5,374 nt of DNA from Spirochaetales bacterium (GTDB taxonomy: Bacteria; Spirochaetota; Spirochaetia; B11-G9), in NCBI GenBank assembly GCA_027077185.1, contig JALTGJ010000027.1, positions 1 to 5,374 on the forward strand, given 5' to 3'. Under the pieces are notes generated by a model. The model was given only the letters and a program-made list of their open reading frames with translations, ran no database searches and was not told the origin of the DNA. The number at the start of each line of letters is the position of its first letter. The first letter of the stretch is position 1. Of this stretch, positions 797-4,105 are shown in pieces. The translations under genes were made by a program, and so were the position numbers.

Positions 797-1642
797 CTAC
801 AGTAACTGCAGTACTGATTGTGTACTGGCATTTGCCTGTGCAAGCATTGCTGTATTAGCCTGAACAAGAATTTGATTCTTTGTGTAGTCAACCATTTCGC
901 TGGCCATATCAACATCTCTAATTCTCGATTCTGCTGCCTGAAGGTTTTCAGATGCAATTGAAACACCTTTTGATGCCATTTCAAATCTATTTTGGTAAGC
1001 TCCCAAATCAGCTCTCTGCTGAGAAACAACTTTTAATGCTGAATCCACCATTCCGATTGCCATGTTGGAATCTTCAGGTGTAGAAATATTAATTGTTTCG
1101 GAACTTCCCTGAGCTCCCTGAATACCAAGCGCCTGTGCTGTCATTGTACCGATGTAGACTCTTTCACTCTGGTCCATATTTGCTCCGACCTGAAACTGCA
1201 TAATAGTTTCCGAATCTCTGGAAAAATTGCCTGTAAGCATATTCATACCGTTAAACTGGGCATGAGAGGCAATCCTGTTGACTTCATCAACCAACTGGGA
1301 TACTTCAACCTGAATTTGCATTCGATCTTCGCTGGTGTATACACCATTTGCTGACTGAACTGAAAGTTCACGAAGTCTGTGTAGAATATCCTGGGTTTCA
1401 TTCAGGTAGCCTTCAGCTGTTTGAATAAATGATACCCCATTCTGAATATTTCTGTCAGCCTGGTTAAGTCCACGAATTTGGCTTCTTAACTTTTCAGAAA
1501 CTGCCAAACCTGATGCATCGTCTCCACCCTTGTTAATTCGCATACCGGAACTAAGTTTTTCAATGTTGTTTGCTACATCCCTTCCTCTGTTTGCGAGTGT
1601 TCTGTTTGCATACATTGCGCTCATATTGTGATTTATTATCAT
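797..1642 (-). CDS. flaB: Periplasmic flagellar filament core flagellin FlaB (second copy)
   Basis: FlaB subunits polymerise into the core of the spirochaete periplasmic flagellar filament. The product is 281 aa, close to the usual length of about 285. It holds only the conserved D0/D1 ends of flagellin with no outer variable domain. The N-terminal helices carry [11 protein letters not shown] and [20 protein letters not shown] (about 27-59). Next come [20 protein letters not shown] and FNGMNMLTG. The C-terminus has [26 protein letters not shown] and [16 protein letters not shown]. There is no signal peptide, as expected for export by the flagellar type III apparatus. The ATG at 1642 has a very strong AAGGAGGG site (1654-1647). 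The gene ends in three in-frame stops, TAG TAA TAA. The two flaB genes share long protein stretches but differ at many synonymous sites, so the duplication is old and not recently homogenised. I cannot assign a FlaB number with confidence. Confidence 0.97.
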
Positions 1643-1646
1643 GTAA

Positions 1647-1685
1647 CCCTCCTTGATAGGTTAAAAGAGGCATCCTTTGCCTCTT
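1647..1685 (-). promoter_or_regulatory. Probable CsrA-binding leader of the second flaB
   Basis: The minus-strand RNA forms a perfect eight-base-pair hairpin, AAGAGGCA / TGCCTCTT (1685-1678 with 1672-1665), with AAGGA in the loop. The core CAAAGGATG is close to the CsrA target consensus CARGGAUG, and CsrA prefers GGA in a hairpin loop. A second GGA lies 23 bases downstream, inside the AAGGAGGG ribosome site (1654-1647). Two such sites, one at the Shine-Dalgarno, are the known arrangement on the Bacillus hag leader, and CsrA control of flaB is known in Borrelia. No csrA or fliW gene is visible here. Confidence 0.6.
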
Positions 1686-1698
1686 GCTTTATGCATGG

Positions 1699-1746
1699 TT
1701 AGGAAGGAAACAAAAGATCATTTTGCGCCTCTTTTGCCCCGTTCAT
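1699..1746 (-). CDS. Possible 15-codon leader peptide ahead of the second flaB
   Basis: ATG at 1746 opens a 15-codon frame, MNGAKEAQNDLLFPS, closed by TAA at 1701-1699. A purine-rich AAGGAAGGA directly precedes the ATG and could act as a ribosome site, although the spacing is short. The frame lies almost exactly inside a stem-loop: its ribosome site and ATG are in the 5' arm and its last codons and stop in the 3' arm. A ribosome here would open that stem. I recognise no family. A short frame of this kind can easily arise by chance. Confidence 0.25.
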   Translation of the reverse strand: MNGAKEAQNDLLFPS

Positions 1747-1754
1747 TCCTTCCT
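1701..1754 (-). other. Nine-base-pair stem with long loop in the flaB-flaB spacer
   Basis: AGGAAGGAA (1754-1746 on the minus strand) pairs perfectly with TTCCTTCCT (1709-1701) around a 36-base loop. The loop contains a smaller possible hairpin, CAAAA/TTTTG. The 5' arm is Shine-Dalgarno-like, so the stem would hide it. It lies about 60 bases before the flaB start and just ahead of the CsrA-type hairpin. The repeat is seen directly; formation in RNA is not proven. Confidence 0.4.
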
Positions 1755-1772
1755 TAAATACGAGGAGATTTA

Positions 1773-1810
1773 TCCGACCCACACTGTTTAATAATAACAG
1801 GTGGATCAGA
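1773..1810 (-). other. Fifteen-base-pair stem-loop in the flaB-flaB spacer
   Basis: The minus-strand RNA TCTGATCCACCTGTT (1810-1796) pairs with AACAG plus GTGGGTCGGA (1788-1773), with one bulged base, two G-U pairs and a seven-base loop ATTATTA. It is the strongest hairpin in the 258-base spacer between the flagellin genes. No T run follows, so it is not a canonical terminator. It may stabilise the 3' end of the first flaB message or mark a processing point that lets the two messages differ in abundance. Confidence 0.5.
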
Positions 1811-1834
1811 AACTCCCTTCGCACAACTATGCCC

Positions 1835-1861
1835 TTTATAATAAGGAGAGTATTATTTCAA
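1835..1861 (-). promoter_or_regulatory. Weak candidate sigma70 promoter for the second flaB
   Basis: TTGAAA (1861-1856) and TATAAA (1840-1835) each match the sigma70 consensus at five of six bases, but the spacing is only 15. I found no sigma28 pattern with acceptable spacing in this spacer, so the second flaB may depend on readthrough from the first. This is a weak call. Confidence 0.2.
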
Positions 1862-1900
1862 AGAACGTCGGTTAATTTATAATATTACTACTATAAACCT

Positions 1901-2761
1901 CTATCTAAATAACTGCAATACGGATTGTGTGGATGAATTAGCCTGGGCAAGCATTGCTGTTCCAGCCTGAACAAGAATCTGGTTCTTTGAGAAATCTACC
2001 ATTTCCTGTGCCATATCAACGTCTCTGATTCTCGATTCTGCAGCCTGAAGATTTTCAGCACCAATATCAATACCATTAATTGCCATAGAGAGTCTGTTTT
2101 GATAAGCACCTAAGTCTGCTCTCTGTTTATTTACTGTTTTTAGAGCCATATCAATGGTTCCAATTGACATATTTGCATCTTCAGGTGAACGTATTGAAAT
2201 AAAGTCGCCTGTTCCTACGTTTGTAATCCCCAGTCCCTGGGATGTCATTGTTCCAATAAAGACTCTTTCCCTTTGGTCCATATTTGCTCCAATGTGCAGC
2301 CACATTGATCCTGTTATTGTGTTTTCTCCTGTTTCTCTGGCAAAACGTCCGGTAAGCATGTTCATGCCGTTAAATTGAGCATGGGATGCAATTCGATCTA
2401 TTTCATCTACAAGCTGACTGACTTCAACCTGGATCTGCATTCTGTCTTCTTCAGTATAAATCCCATTTGCAGCCTGCACCGAAAGTTCTCTCATTCGGTG
2501 AAGAATATCCTGAGTTTCCTGCATATACCCTTCTGCTGTCTGGATAAATGAAATACCGTTTGCAGCATTTCGCGATGCCTGGTGAAGTCCACGAATCTGT
2601 GCTCTCATTTTTTCAGATACTGCAAGTCCGGATGCATCATCTCCTGCTCTGTTAATTCTTAAGCCCGAAGATAGCTTTTCCATGTTTCCTGCAACTTTGC
2701 TGTTTGTTCGGCCCAGTTGATTTTGTGCGAATACTGCACTCATGTTGTGATTAATTATCAT
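1901..2761 (-). CDS. flaB: Periplasmic flagellar filament core flagellin FlaB (first copy)
   Basis: This is the first of two tandem core flagellins. The product is 286 aa, the usual FlaB length, and consists of D0/D1 sequence only. Landmarks are [20 protein letters not shown] and [12 protein letters not shown] near the N-terminus, [20 protein letters not shown] and [20 protein letters not shown] in the middle, and [28 protein letters not shown] and [17 protein letters not shown] at the end. The [20 protein letters not shown] segment and final Arg resemble what I remember of treponemal FlaB1. I start it at the ATG at 2761, which has GGAGG (2772-2768) six bases upstream and gives the family-standard MIINHNMSA. 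An in-frame ATG at 2782 would add seven residues encoded across the ribosome site. A sigma28-type promoter lies at 2972-2945, giving a long structured leader. Confidence 0.97.
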
Positions 2762-2767
2762 TTGTTT

Positions 2768-2805
2768 CCTCCATGAAAACATTTTACAGAAGCATCCTTG
2801 CTCCT
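2768..2805 (-). promoter_or_regulatory. Probable CsrA-binding leader of the first flaB
   Basis: AGGAGCA (2805-2799) pairs with TGCTTCT (2794-2788), one pair being G-U, and presents AGGA as a four-base loop. The core GCAAGGATGC contains CAAGGATG, an exact match to the CsrA consensus CARGGAUG. A second GGA lies 25 bases downstream in the GGAGG ribosome site (2772-2768). The second flaB has the same hairpin with different paired bases (GGAGC/GCTTC here, GAGGC/GCCTC there), so structure and loop are kept while stem sequence shifts. A ten-A run precedes it on the RNA. Confidence 0.62.
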
Positions 2806-2819
2806 TTTTTTTTTATCGA

Positions 2820-2855
2820 TAATAAAAAATACGTAAAAATAAATATTTTTTATTA
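2820..2855 (-). other. Twelve-base A/T inverted repeat in the first flaB leader
   Basis: TAATAAAAAATA and TATTTTTTATTA form a perfect 12-base inverted repeat (2855-2844 with 2831-2820) around a 12-base loop. The stem has no G or C. It is followed by TTATCGATAA and ten A residues before the CsrA-type hairpin. It could be a weak RNA hairpin, an A/U-rich translation-enhancing leader, or bent DNA. I cannot tell which. Confidence 0.4.
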
Positions 2856-2892
2856 AGGCATCTCAGATTTCTCCGATATTATTACTATAGGG

Positions 2893-2934
2893 GGGAAGGC
2901 TGTATTTCTCCAGGTACCATGGATACAACTTCCC
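2893..2934 (-). other. Stem-loop near the 5' end of the first flaB message
   Basis: The minus-strand RNA pairs GGGAAG (2934-2929) with CTTCCC (2898-2893), then TGTAT with ATACA, then CCA with TGG, in one continuous hairpin with small internal loops. If the sigma28 promoter at 2972-2945 is used, the transcript starts about five bases before this stem. That placement suits a 5' stabiliser of an abundant message. Pairing is by eye. Confidence 0.45.
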
Positions 2935-2944
2935 TCATTGAAGA

Positions 2945-2972
2945 GCATCGGCTGTGTAAGTTAATAGCTTTA
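2945..2972 (-). promoter_or_regulatory. Sigma28 (FliA)-type promoter of the first flaB
   Basis: TAAA (2972-2969) is followed after 16 bases by GCCGATGC (2952-2945). The sigma28 consensus is TAAA, about 15 bases, GCCGATAA, so the -35 core is perfect and the -10 matches at six of eight, including GCCGAT. It lies directly after the TPR gene. Predicted start is about 2939-2937, giving a leader of about 175 bases. Sigma28 control is usual for flagellins. Confidence 0.55.
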
Positions 2973-2992
2973 GGAATTTATTTAAAAAAATA

Positions 2993-4105
2993 TTATTTTA
3001 GTAGAAATTCAATATATTTTTGAGCAATCCTGTCCTCAGGTTCTATTTCCAGAACAGTTTTAAAGAAACCCAGAGCTTCTACCTGTTTGTTTTCTTTTAA
3101 AGCAAGTATTCCAAAGTTTGAAATAATTTTTATATTTTCACCGTCCAGCCTGAGGGCCTGGGATAGTTTTTTACGGCATTCAATATATTCACCCAGTTCA
3201 AGATAACAAATTGCCAGCTCATTATAAGTATCAATATTTTCAGGATTCAGATTTAAACATTTTACCAGAGCTTCTTTTCCTTTTTGATAGTTGCCAATTC
3301 TGCGATATGCCCAACCTAAAAGAAACCATGCATTCCAAATATCTTTATTTGAATCAATATATTGTTTAACTTTTTTAATACCCGATTCTTCTTTCCCTAT
3401 TTTTATGAGTTCATATGCCTCATTAAAAATTGTGTCTTCGTTGGAAAGATTTTGAATTTTTTCTAAAATATGTCTTACATGATTCTGTTTATCAATATCC
3501 TTGGTTATGGAAAGGTAGTGTTTGAGCAGTAATCCTGCTTTTGACATATTCCCGTGTTTTAAATAAAAATTACCTGCATTAAATATTGCGTTTTCAGAAT
3601 TTGGGTGCAGTTTCATTATTCTTTTATATATTGAAAAAGCTTCATCTTTTTTTTGTTCTGCGAGATTAGAATTTTTAAGATTTTCATATAATTCTGCCTG
3701 CTCTTCCAGGACCAGGGCAAGATTTGTCAGATTTTGTTCTATATCCGGATGATAATTTGCAAGTGCTCTAAAAATTTCCTCTGCAATCTCAAAATCTTTG
3801 TTGTTGGCTTTTATTATACCTGTCTGGGTCATTTCTTCATTAATCCTAGGTTTAACAAAATCAATAAAATTTCTGTAGTAGTTAATATTTTTATGTTCAG
3901 AATCCCATGCAAAAATTTTTAACATTCCTGCAATGATCATTTCCCATGAGAGATCCTGCATTTGCCAATTTGTTTCATCTATAGGTATTTCAACCGGTAA
4001 AAGTATTGAGGTATCAATTTTAAAACCATCTATATCCTGTTCAGAATCTTCAGGAATAGAAACATATACTATTCGTTCAAGTTTTGAGTGCTTATTTGTT
4101 TTCAT
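2993..4105 (-). CDS. TPR-repeat protein of the flagellin locus
   Basis: This 370-aa protein is probably a cytoplasmic protein-binding scaffold; I see no signal peptide or membrane segment. The first 100 residues are acidic and not repeat-like. From about 105 to the end it is built of tetratricopeptide units. The clearest are at about 257-290 (WFLLGWAYRRIGNYQKGKEA), 291-324 (YNELAICYLELGEYIECRKK) and 325-358 (ILALKENKQVEALGFFKTVL, then EIEPED); weaker units lie at about 105-138, 139-172, 173-205 and 226-255. The gene begins 27 bases after the pilZ stop and probably shares its transcript. No good ribosome site precedes the ATG at 4105, so expression may be low. Its place between pilZ and flaB suggests a flagellar or motility role, but the partner is unknown. 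Confidence 0.85.
   Translation of the reverse strand: MKTNKHSKLERIVYVSIPEDSEQDIDGFKIDTSILLPVEIPIDETNWQMQDLSWEMIIAGMLKIFAWDSEHKNINYYRNFIDFVKPRINEEMTQTGIIKANNKDFEIAEEIFRALANYHPDIEQNLTNLALVLEEQAELYENLKNSNLAEQKKDEAFSIYKRIMKLHPNSENAIFNAGNFYLKHGNMSKAGLLLKHYLSITKDIDKQNHVRHILEKIQNLSNEDTIFNEAYELIKIGKEESGIKKVKQYIDSNKDIWNAWFLLGWAYRRIGNYQKGKEALVKCLNLNPENIDTYNELAICYLELGEYIECRKKLSQALRLDGENIKIISNFGILALKENKQVEALGFFKTVLEIEPEDRIAQKYIEFLLK

Follow-up and report, generated by a model that had tools for sequence, protein, structure and literature searches.

Two core flagellin genes, flaB-a and flaB-b, follow each other on the minus strand of a 5,374-nt stretch of Spirochaetales DNA (this whole stretch is termed the window in the following), and the question raised by this locus is whether the translation of both is controlled by the RNA-binding protein CsrA. 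A sequence-only reading had proposed one translational switch for both FlaB proteins from a CsrA-type hairpin in each leader. Based on the comparison with relatives, we consider CsrA control of both flagellin mRNAs to be very likely, as judged from their leader sequences. The best explanation, to which we assign a probability of roughly 85%, is a control of both flaB mRNAs by CsrA bridging and FliW, with a further, intergenic layer acting on flaB-b.

Hairpins in Both Flagellin Leaders

The two hairpins were confirmed to the base at the positions claimed for them (Table 1), including the A(A)GGA loops and a distance of 25 nt (flaB-a) and 23 nt (flaB-b) between the loop GGA and the GGA of the Shine-Dalgarno sequence (SD). 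Dinucleotide shuffles gave an equally strong or stronger hairpin with GGA in its loop in 21 of 5,000 cases for the flaB-a leader and in 1 of 5,000 for the flaB-b leader. Because the window holds a fair number of moderately scoring GGA-loop hairpins (14 overlapping matches on the minus strand, both hairpins included, and three on the plus strand), chance is ruled out chiefly by the position of the two hairpins and by the relatives. RNA folding resolved each leader into two successive hairpins (z -3.7 and -3.4), the SD being located wholly or partly in the second loop. Comparing the two CsrA-type hairpins reveals a single pair changed on both sides (A-U to G-C) and another changed on one side (G.U versus A-U). 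Since only one two-sided change separates the stems, the window's own two sequences are weak evidence of the covariation that had been read from them, whereas the alignments of relatives described below are strong evidence.

Conservation in Relatives

The relatives' sample comprised 80 loci. A pattern for the flagellin start yielded 142 leaders from 79 of the 81 sources (the window and 78 loci), divided into 64 flaB-a leaders, to which the single leader of L003 was assigned, and 78 flaB-b leaders. L052 and L077, missed by the pattern due to a changed second codon, were read by eye and, like the equally missed flaB-b of L003, are outside all leader counts. The nearest relatives compared, L001 and L002, share 92% and 91% identity in FlaB-b with the window, and 79% and 81% identity on DNA level over the longest aligned stretches.

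The loop GGA, on whose retention in close relatives the claim had beforehand been made to depend, is kept. It lies 20-31 nt upstream of the SD GGA in 62 of 64 flaB-a and 70 of 78 flaB-b leaders and, within this search range, at a spacing of 21-30 and 22-28 nt, respectively. Any GGA-loop hairpin was present in 132 of the 142 leaders (93%, a few of them wrongly placed) compared with 22% of shuffles, and one of at least five pairs in 88% compared with 9%. The alignments of these hairpins comprise only leaders with GGA at 20-31 nt. In alignment A1 (flaB-a; 62 rows, 55 distinct), 92.3% of the cells are paired and covariation amounts to 0.711, versus 0.247 for shuffled and at most 0.231 for slid alignments. 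The respective values for A2 (flaB-b; 70 rows, 60 distinct) are 79.3% and 0.572, versus 0.217 shuffled and at most 0.315 slid; we think that this lower score stems from several loop registers being squeezed into a single alignment. Stems thus vary among relatives while their pairing stays, in agreement with the proposed selection on RNA shape. That the two flagellins are old duplicates was borne out as well: within an unrooted tree of 162 flagellins, the 86 flaB-b rows cluster together (support 99) and the 72 flaB-a rows occupy one side of a branch (support 76), which fits a duplication predating the sampled lineages.

The loops of the two paralogs differ systematically. An ANGGAX hexaloop placed straight on the stem is described as the tight CsrA form, two inserted nucleotides causing a tenfold loss (PMC4005645). 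This optimal site, a CANGGANG hexaloop directly on a C-G pair, was found in 59 of 64 flaB-a leaders versus 10 of 78 flaB-b leaders. In the 60 genomes with GGA in both leaders, it occurs in flaB-a only (49), in flaB-b only (2), in both (8), or in neither (1). The window follows this scheme with the high-affinity hexaloop form in flaB-a, fitting the CsrA consensus (A/U)CANGGANG(U/A) (PMC6692469), and a heptaloop instead in flaB-b. As flaB-a keeps the ANGGAN hexaloop on a C-G pair and flaB-b usually does not, flaB-a is probably the tighter CsrA target.

The Shine-Dalgarno Sequence as Putative Second Site

In all 142 flaB leaders the SD lies within CANGGAGG (N being free); among 79 further genes of these loci that have a GGAGG SD, the same holds for 18. 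These control genes and the flaB rows each share descent and are hence not independent. The SDs of the window accordingly carry a second A(N)GGA, in the forms CATGGAGG and CAAGGAGG. Conservation of C and A in the SD, with N left free, would fit the CsrA consensus rather than a need for stronger pairing with the ribosome. According to the predicted fold, the outer stem around the SD is well formed in flaB-a of the window and the same or similar in L001, L016, and L017. Bridging by CsrA is described for sites 10-63 nt apart (PMC7652899), a range that includes both spacings of the window and those of the relatives.

Distribution of csrA and fliW and Specificity of the Leader

The presence of csrA and fliW had been named as a check, and it turned out positive in the relatives' genomes. 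Of the 80 relatives' genomes, 41 were searched and 37 of these contain csrA. In a sample of 80 genomes from across the phylum, csrA is present in 76; in both sets fliW was found in the same genomes. The four phylum genomes lacking both genes still have matches to the leader model R1 described below. In G002, the genome of the close relative L002, fliW and csrA stand side by side after a gene of FlgL type (Pfam), preceded by two genes resembling flgN and flgK in terms of position and sequence only. This is the gene order reported for Treponema denticola (PMC9481697). As a side observation, csrA is found on the contig of the flaB pair, approximately 5-8 kb from flaB-b and on the opposite strand, in eleven genomes (G003, G005, G012, G014, G015, G016, G020, G028, G030, G033, and G037).

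The covariance model R1 of the flaB-a leader was built from 47 of the 62 flaB-a rows, excluding L012, L021, L022, and L064 for their odd register and others for a spacing outside 22-26 nt or for identity; a second model, R2, was built from 61 of the 70 flaB-b rows. R1 requires both sites, so that single-site targets would escape it. A search of 21 whole genomes, mostly sources of training sequences, returned 35 matches at E<=0.001, 34 of them, judged by coordinates, directly before a flagellin gene and one before a flaB cut by the contig end. At E<=0.01 there were 47 matches, 42 of them before a flaB with full coordinates, and at any E up to 0.33 a total of 46 of the 59 flaB genes was matched. 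Given that many flaB-a matches are training sequences, what the search shows is that other targets are lacking and that unlinked third flaB genes outside the training set are matched (e.g., on contig C144 of G002). Within the phylum sample, 61 of the 80 genomes have an R1 match at E<=0.01. Inspection of the 58 top-ranked loci revealed a flagellin start at the site in 53 by a strict pattern; the remaining five comprise two near a contig end with a correctly placed flagellin and three flagellin-like proteins with a changed start motif. A wider CsrA regulon was also considered on the basis of R1: among 15 non-flaB matches (E 0.003-0.08), those read had no GGA loop and/or no gene, or were chance-like, and a regulon beyond flaB is not claimed from this search.

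Several leaders show further layouts. In L165, L166, and L168, all third flaB genes of three genomes, a far-upstream GGA hairpin is followed by a plain hairpin, and the SD is not CANGGAGG. Roughly 120 nt upstream of their flaB site, L204, L205, and L206 have another hairpin with CAAGGAGG and a possible start codon, an arrangement suggestive of a very short reading frame behind it. An ATGGAT hairpin is found in the flaB leader of L210, 41 nt upstream of an CACGGAGG SD; the leader layout may thus extend further than R1 reveals.

A Probable CsrA-FliW Switch for Two Flagellins

Building on these observed features (hairpins, covariation, SD consensus, spacing, and csrA-fliW in relatives), we infer CsrA binding, bridging, repression, and FliW control at this locus from the leader anatomy and from the tested flaA leader of Campylobacter jejuni, which has the same two stem-loops. 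Each flaB mRNA would offer two CsrA sites, the A(A)GGA of the hairpin loop and, 23-25 nt further downstream, the CANGGAGG that overlaps the SD. A single CsrA dimer would place one surface on the hairpin and the other on the SD, thereby excluding the ribosome. FliW, usually encoded beside csrA, would draw CsrA off when unassembled flagellin falls low, so that flagellin synthesis would track filament export. flaB-b would be further controlled by the intergenic RNA through a boxA-like word and an anti-Shine-Dalgarno strand (anti-SD) covering its SD. The proposal of one switch for both FlaB proteins is supported but too simple, as the flaB-b loop is looser and flaB-b has a putative second layer in its boxA-like word and anti-SD.

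A number of observations weigh against this explanation. GGA is missing at the expected place in 2 of 64 flaB-a and 8 of 78 flaB-b leaders, and the lack of GGA is not tied to a loss of csrA, as the genomes of L053, L057, L065, L068, L078, and L079 have csrA and fliW. Across the set, the hairpin around the SD has no covariation support beyond its inner C-G and U-A pairs. Neither csrA nor fliW was seen in the genome of L001, whose FlaB-b is the closest to that of the window; this may reflect incompleteness, because the two genes are absent together in every such genome. Moreover, R1 gave no match up to E 0.5 for 13 of the 59 flaB genes in the 21 genomes, and the third flaB of G009, G013, and G019 has no CANGGAGG SD, though a GGA hairpin is located further upstream. 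In the phylum sample, 19 of the 80 genomes remained without an R1 match under the stricter filters applied there, all 80 having flagellin; some leaders of those 19 genomes show a GGA hairpin of a different form.

Structured RNA Between flaB-a and flaB-b

The gap between the two genes, which forms a long flaB-b leader, opens with the word GNTCTTTGA, followed by a run like AMAAANACCCTC. With 56 of 64 gaps containing the word, its density there is 2.95 per kb, about 140-fold higher than in the remainder of these loci (10 occurrences in 481 kb of the same strand), bearing in mind that it was defined post hoc after being seen in relatives. Of 63 stretches of 300 nt preceding flaB-a, two contain it. 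The gaps of a gut Treponema genus carry it in 27 of 30 cases, and a look by eye revealed no clear anti-SD after it in these gaps. The word resembles the Nus boxA, with the consensus GYTCTTTAANA, known from rRNA and suhB (PMC5725501), in its core and in being followed by untranslated RNA. Among 18 rRNA loci of the phylum examined, the 16S start was located in 15; six of these (four genomes) have GNTCTTTGA upstream, four have only GCTCTTTAA close to 16S (-34), and five have none. One of the four genomes (G167) carries the word in its flaB gap too. No report of a boxA between flagellin genes was found in the literature when searching for boxA with flagellin, flaB, or Treponema. For Escherichia coli, NusB-S10 has been linked to the readthrough of flagellar operons in a paper whose main text nowhere contains the term boxA (PMC10578931). 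A sigma-70 promoter, with TTGAMA in the word, was considered and rejected: at 15-18 nt the best match to the -10 TATAAT averaged 2.23 of 6 positions versus 2.28 in shuffles, and at least four -10 matches were reached in 5 of 56 cases versus 10.5% expected.

Downstream of the word lies ACCCTC, which is able to pair with GAGGGT in the SD of flaB-b at a distance of roughly 190 nt. A run of at least six anti-SD/SD pairs was found in 51 of 56 leaders versus 23% of shuffled segments; taken singly, 32 of the 56 reach the 5% level. The anti-SD changes along with the SD flank in L020 and L059, and the helix shows little covariation because the SD itself is constrained. Alignments A6 (the window and ten relatives) and A7 (16 relatives) yield the same predicted long-range helix and internal hairpins with two-sided changes. 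They are paired to 88.9% and 90.5%, with a covariation of 0.427 and 0.441 versus 0.267 and 0.227 shuffled and at most 0.174 and 0.147 slid, the counted structures being derived from those same alignments, a bias in their favor that the slid controls share. A scan of the window and the intergenic region with Rfam returned no family at a useful score for the intergenic RNA. If flaB-b is reached from flaB-a across the untranslated gap, the boxA-like word would protect the transcribing polymerase against Rho as long as the message stays silent, and a second lock on the flaB-b SD would be provided by the anti-SD.

With rather low probability, the boxA-like word is a further anti-SD strand instead of a Nus site. 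Within it, TTCTTTGA pairs with TCAAGGAG of the SD at eight of eight positions, G.U included, and with TCATGGAG or TCACGGAG at seven of eight; in L020 and L058, pairing of word and SD is even the best long-range run. However, the word does not follow the SD, being similarly kept in leaders with a CAT/CAC SD (unchanged in 11 of 12) and with a CAA SD (45 of 52), and it recurs upstream of 16S rRNA in 6 of 15 loci, where no SD exists.

A GGA-Less Hairpin in Gut Treponema

In the gut Treponema genus (that of G024), 59 genomes gave 30 flaB-a, 46 flaB-b, and 24 further flaB leaders, the 46 flaB-b leaders coming one each from 46 of the genomes (L224-L269). All 30 flaB-a leaders present ANGGA, and 29 have a CANGGAGG SD. 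The flaB-b leaders show a CANGANG pentaloop motif, one G short, in 45 of 46 cases and retain a CATGGAGG SD in all 46. The third flaB serves as internal control, as both motifs are absent and its SD differs: 22 of 24 leaders have neither ANGGA nor CANGANG, and 23 of 24 carry an SD of the NNAGGAGA type. Of the two leaders that do have a motif, one (L278) resembles a flaB-a leader. The 45 flaB-b leaders with the motif resulted in 41 distinct rows of alignment A5; for L236, L241, and L257, with two candidates each, the one nearest to 24 nt was chosen. A5 is paired to 90.6% and reaches a covariation of 0.719 versus 0.245 shuffled and at most 0.196 slid, on par with the canonical hairpins, with no variation at C, A, G, A, and the closing G. 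ANGAG-like loops were also seen in the flaB-b leader of L059 and in L217 and L218, seemingly outside this genus.

This hairpin, strongly covarying around invariant bases and yet without GGA, is the main argument for a different RNA-binding protein or factor, not CsrA, as reader of the hairpins in at least some lineages, which we regard as improbable. The core bases recognized by CsrA are stated to be irreplaceable (PMC4005645), and the CsrA proteins of seven genomes with a CANGANG-type, GGA-less loop (those of L099, L101-L103, L105, L106, and L108) appear ordinary by eye. On the other hand, the window and most of the relatives read have the CsrA consensus as their flaB-a loop, and CATGGAGG is retained in the SD of all 46 leaders of the odd type. 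The odd loop itself is the same motif minus one G, with similar loops in L059, L217, and L218.

More tentatively, the intergenic RNA may represent a new class of cis-regulator joining transcription and translation control through a Nus boxA, an anti-SD lock, and a CsrA hairpin, with a gut Treponema side branch that would have evolved the GGA-less CANGANG hairpin, read newly by CsrA or by another protein. The rRNA-type boxA would recruit Nus factors, allowing the polymerase to survive the untranslated, CsrA-silenced stretch, and the CsrA hairpin would decide when the anti-SD frees the flaB-b SD, thus setting the FlaB-a:FlaB-b ratio. Since the word can also pair with the SD, we hold this joint proposal to be doubtful.

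Two further readings were examined and rejected. It is very improbable that the hairpins are intrinsic terminators or attenuators, of which the flaB-b one could end flaB-a transcripts: a short run of T comes after this hairpin in the window (TTTT), L001, and L002, but TTTT follows it in just 4 of 70 flaB-b leaders while the A-N-GGA loop is kept. No T run comes after the window's flaB-a hairpin, and a scan of positions 1600-3000 gave no terminator-like site at either hairpin. Hardly any weight is left for the idea that the ATG within AAGGATG opens a short upstream frame coupled to flaB translation. In its favor, the loop GGATG of the window's flaB-a leader is followed by CTT CTG TAA with GGAG just upstream, but the frame is not kept in L001 and the loop ATG is not conserved though the hairpin is: of 61 flaB-a leaders (counted without L003), 47 have T after GGA, the others having C (9), A (4), or G (1).

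Genes and Features of the Window

On its minus strand the window encodes a PilZ protein (PlzA-like), a TPR protein, flaB-a, flaB-b, flaG, and the start of fliD. Among four leaders compared for a sigma-28 -10 word before flaB-a, it was seen in the window only and not in L001, L002, or L017. Upstream of the PilZ gene, a 6S RNA was found at positions 5184-5005 of the minus strand (57.7 bits versus a gathering score of 46.4).

Table 1. Positions of the features discussed, with the basis of each assignment
Feature	Position	Strand	Basis or remark
flaB-a, core flagellin, 286 aa	1901..2761	minus	Pfam Flagellin_N and Flagellin_C
flaB-b, core flagellin, 281 aa	797..1642	minus	Pfam Flagellin_N and Flagellin_C; flaB-b group of tree
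flaB-a CsrA-type hairpin: stem AGGAGC/GCTTCT, hexaloop AAGGAT on C-G pair	2788..2805	minus	direct reading, shuffles, covariation
flaB-a loop GGA	2797-2795	minus	
flaB-a second GGA site: predicted hairpin TGTTTTC-ATGGA-GGAAACA with SD CATGGAGG (2775-2768)	2763..2781	minus	fold
flaB-b CsrA-type hairpin: stem AAGAGGC/GCCTCTT, heptaloop AAAGGAT	1665..1685	minus	direct reading, shuffles, covariation
flaB-b loop GGA	1675-1673	minus	
flaB-b local SD hairpin TAACCT-ATCAAGGA-GGGTTA	1644..1663	minus	predicted fold
flaB-b SD AAGGAGGGT	1654-1646	minus	also possible anti-SD partner (long-range pairing)
Structured flaB-a/flaB-b intergenic RNA, long flaB-b leader, 258 nt	1643..1900	minus	covarying helices, two alignments
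boxA-like word GTTCTTTGA	1858..1866	minus	word conservation; rRNA loci
Anti-SD ACTCTCCTT, flaB-b SD as possible partner	1843..1851	minus	predicted in alignments A6, A7
Helix 2, long internal hairpin	1759..1823	minus	10/19 pairs with two-sided changes (A6)
Helix 3, second internal hairpin and flanks, loops with TGAACGGGG and GAGGCGC	1694..1759	minus	A6 (6/8 pairs with two-sided changes); fold (-18.5 kcal/mol)

Relation to Known Systems and Meaning

The sequence-only reading had likened the locus to CsrA-repressed flagellin of Bacillus and Borrelia. The likeness to CsrA-repressed flagellin is supported, with the closest tested match being flaA of C. jejuni, in whose 5' untranslated region the two-stem-loop layout for CsrA was tested by footprinting (Dugar 2016, PMC4894983). 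As described there, both systems share two stem-loops with ANGGA in both loops, the second on the ribosome-binding site, compensatory changes among relatives, and the participation of FliW. They differ in that C. jejuni has a 45-nt flaA leader, while spirochetes have two, often three, core flagellin genes with systematic differences of the loops and, at flaB-b, a long structured leader with a boxA-like word. The hag mRNA of Bacillus subtilis likewise has two CsrA sites, one of them on the SD, within a Hag-FliW-CsrA feedback (PMC7652899); it belongs to another phylum with another arrangement of flagellin genes, and the switch at the present locus is a prediction.

Within the spirochetes, sites at flaB1 and flaB2 of T. 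denticola have already been mentioned in one sentence, which comes without sequence, hairpin, covariation, test, or intergenic RNA (Kurniyati 2022, PMC9481697). For flaB3 and flaB4 of Leptospira, gel shifts revealed CsrA binding to a GGA hexaloop near the start codon, and flaB3 is repressed in the saprophyte L. biflexa, of which a csrA deletion strain has been reported; the description is of a single site near the SD, with no second upstream hairpin, and csrA overexpression in L. interrogans raised flaB levels (PMC8668096). The proposed CsrA control of the leader itself is an already known kind of switch, while the asymmetry between the paralogs' loops was not met in the parts of the literature consulted. 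The new parts are the boxA/anti-SD domain and the GGA-less hairpins.

Spirochete filaments are composed of several flagellins in set proportions. The same repressor acting on two paralogs with systematically different loops, together with an unlinked third flaB that is devoid of the site in one genus or more and the RNA domain separating flaB-a from flaB-b, would provide a testable code for these proportions. The comparative evidence puts the CsrA-FliW flagellin switch widely across the phylum and gives a hint of an rRNA-type boxA between flagellin genes; the GGA-less hairpins in turn represent a natural set for probing the limits of CsrA recognition.

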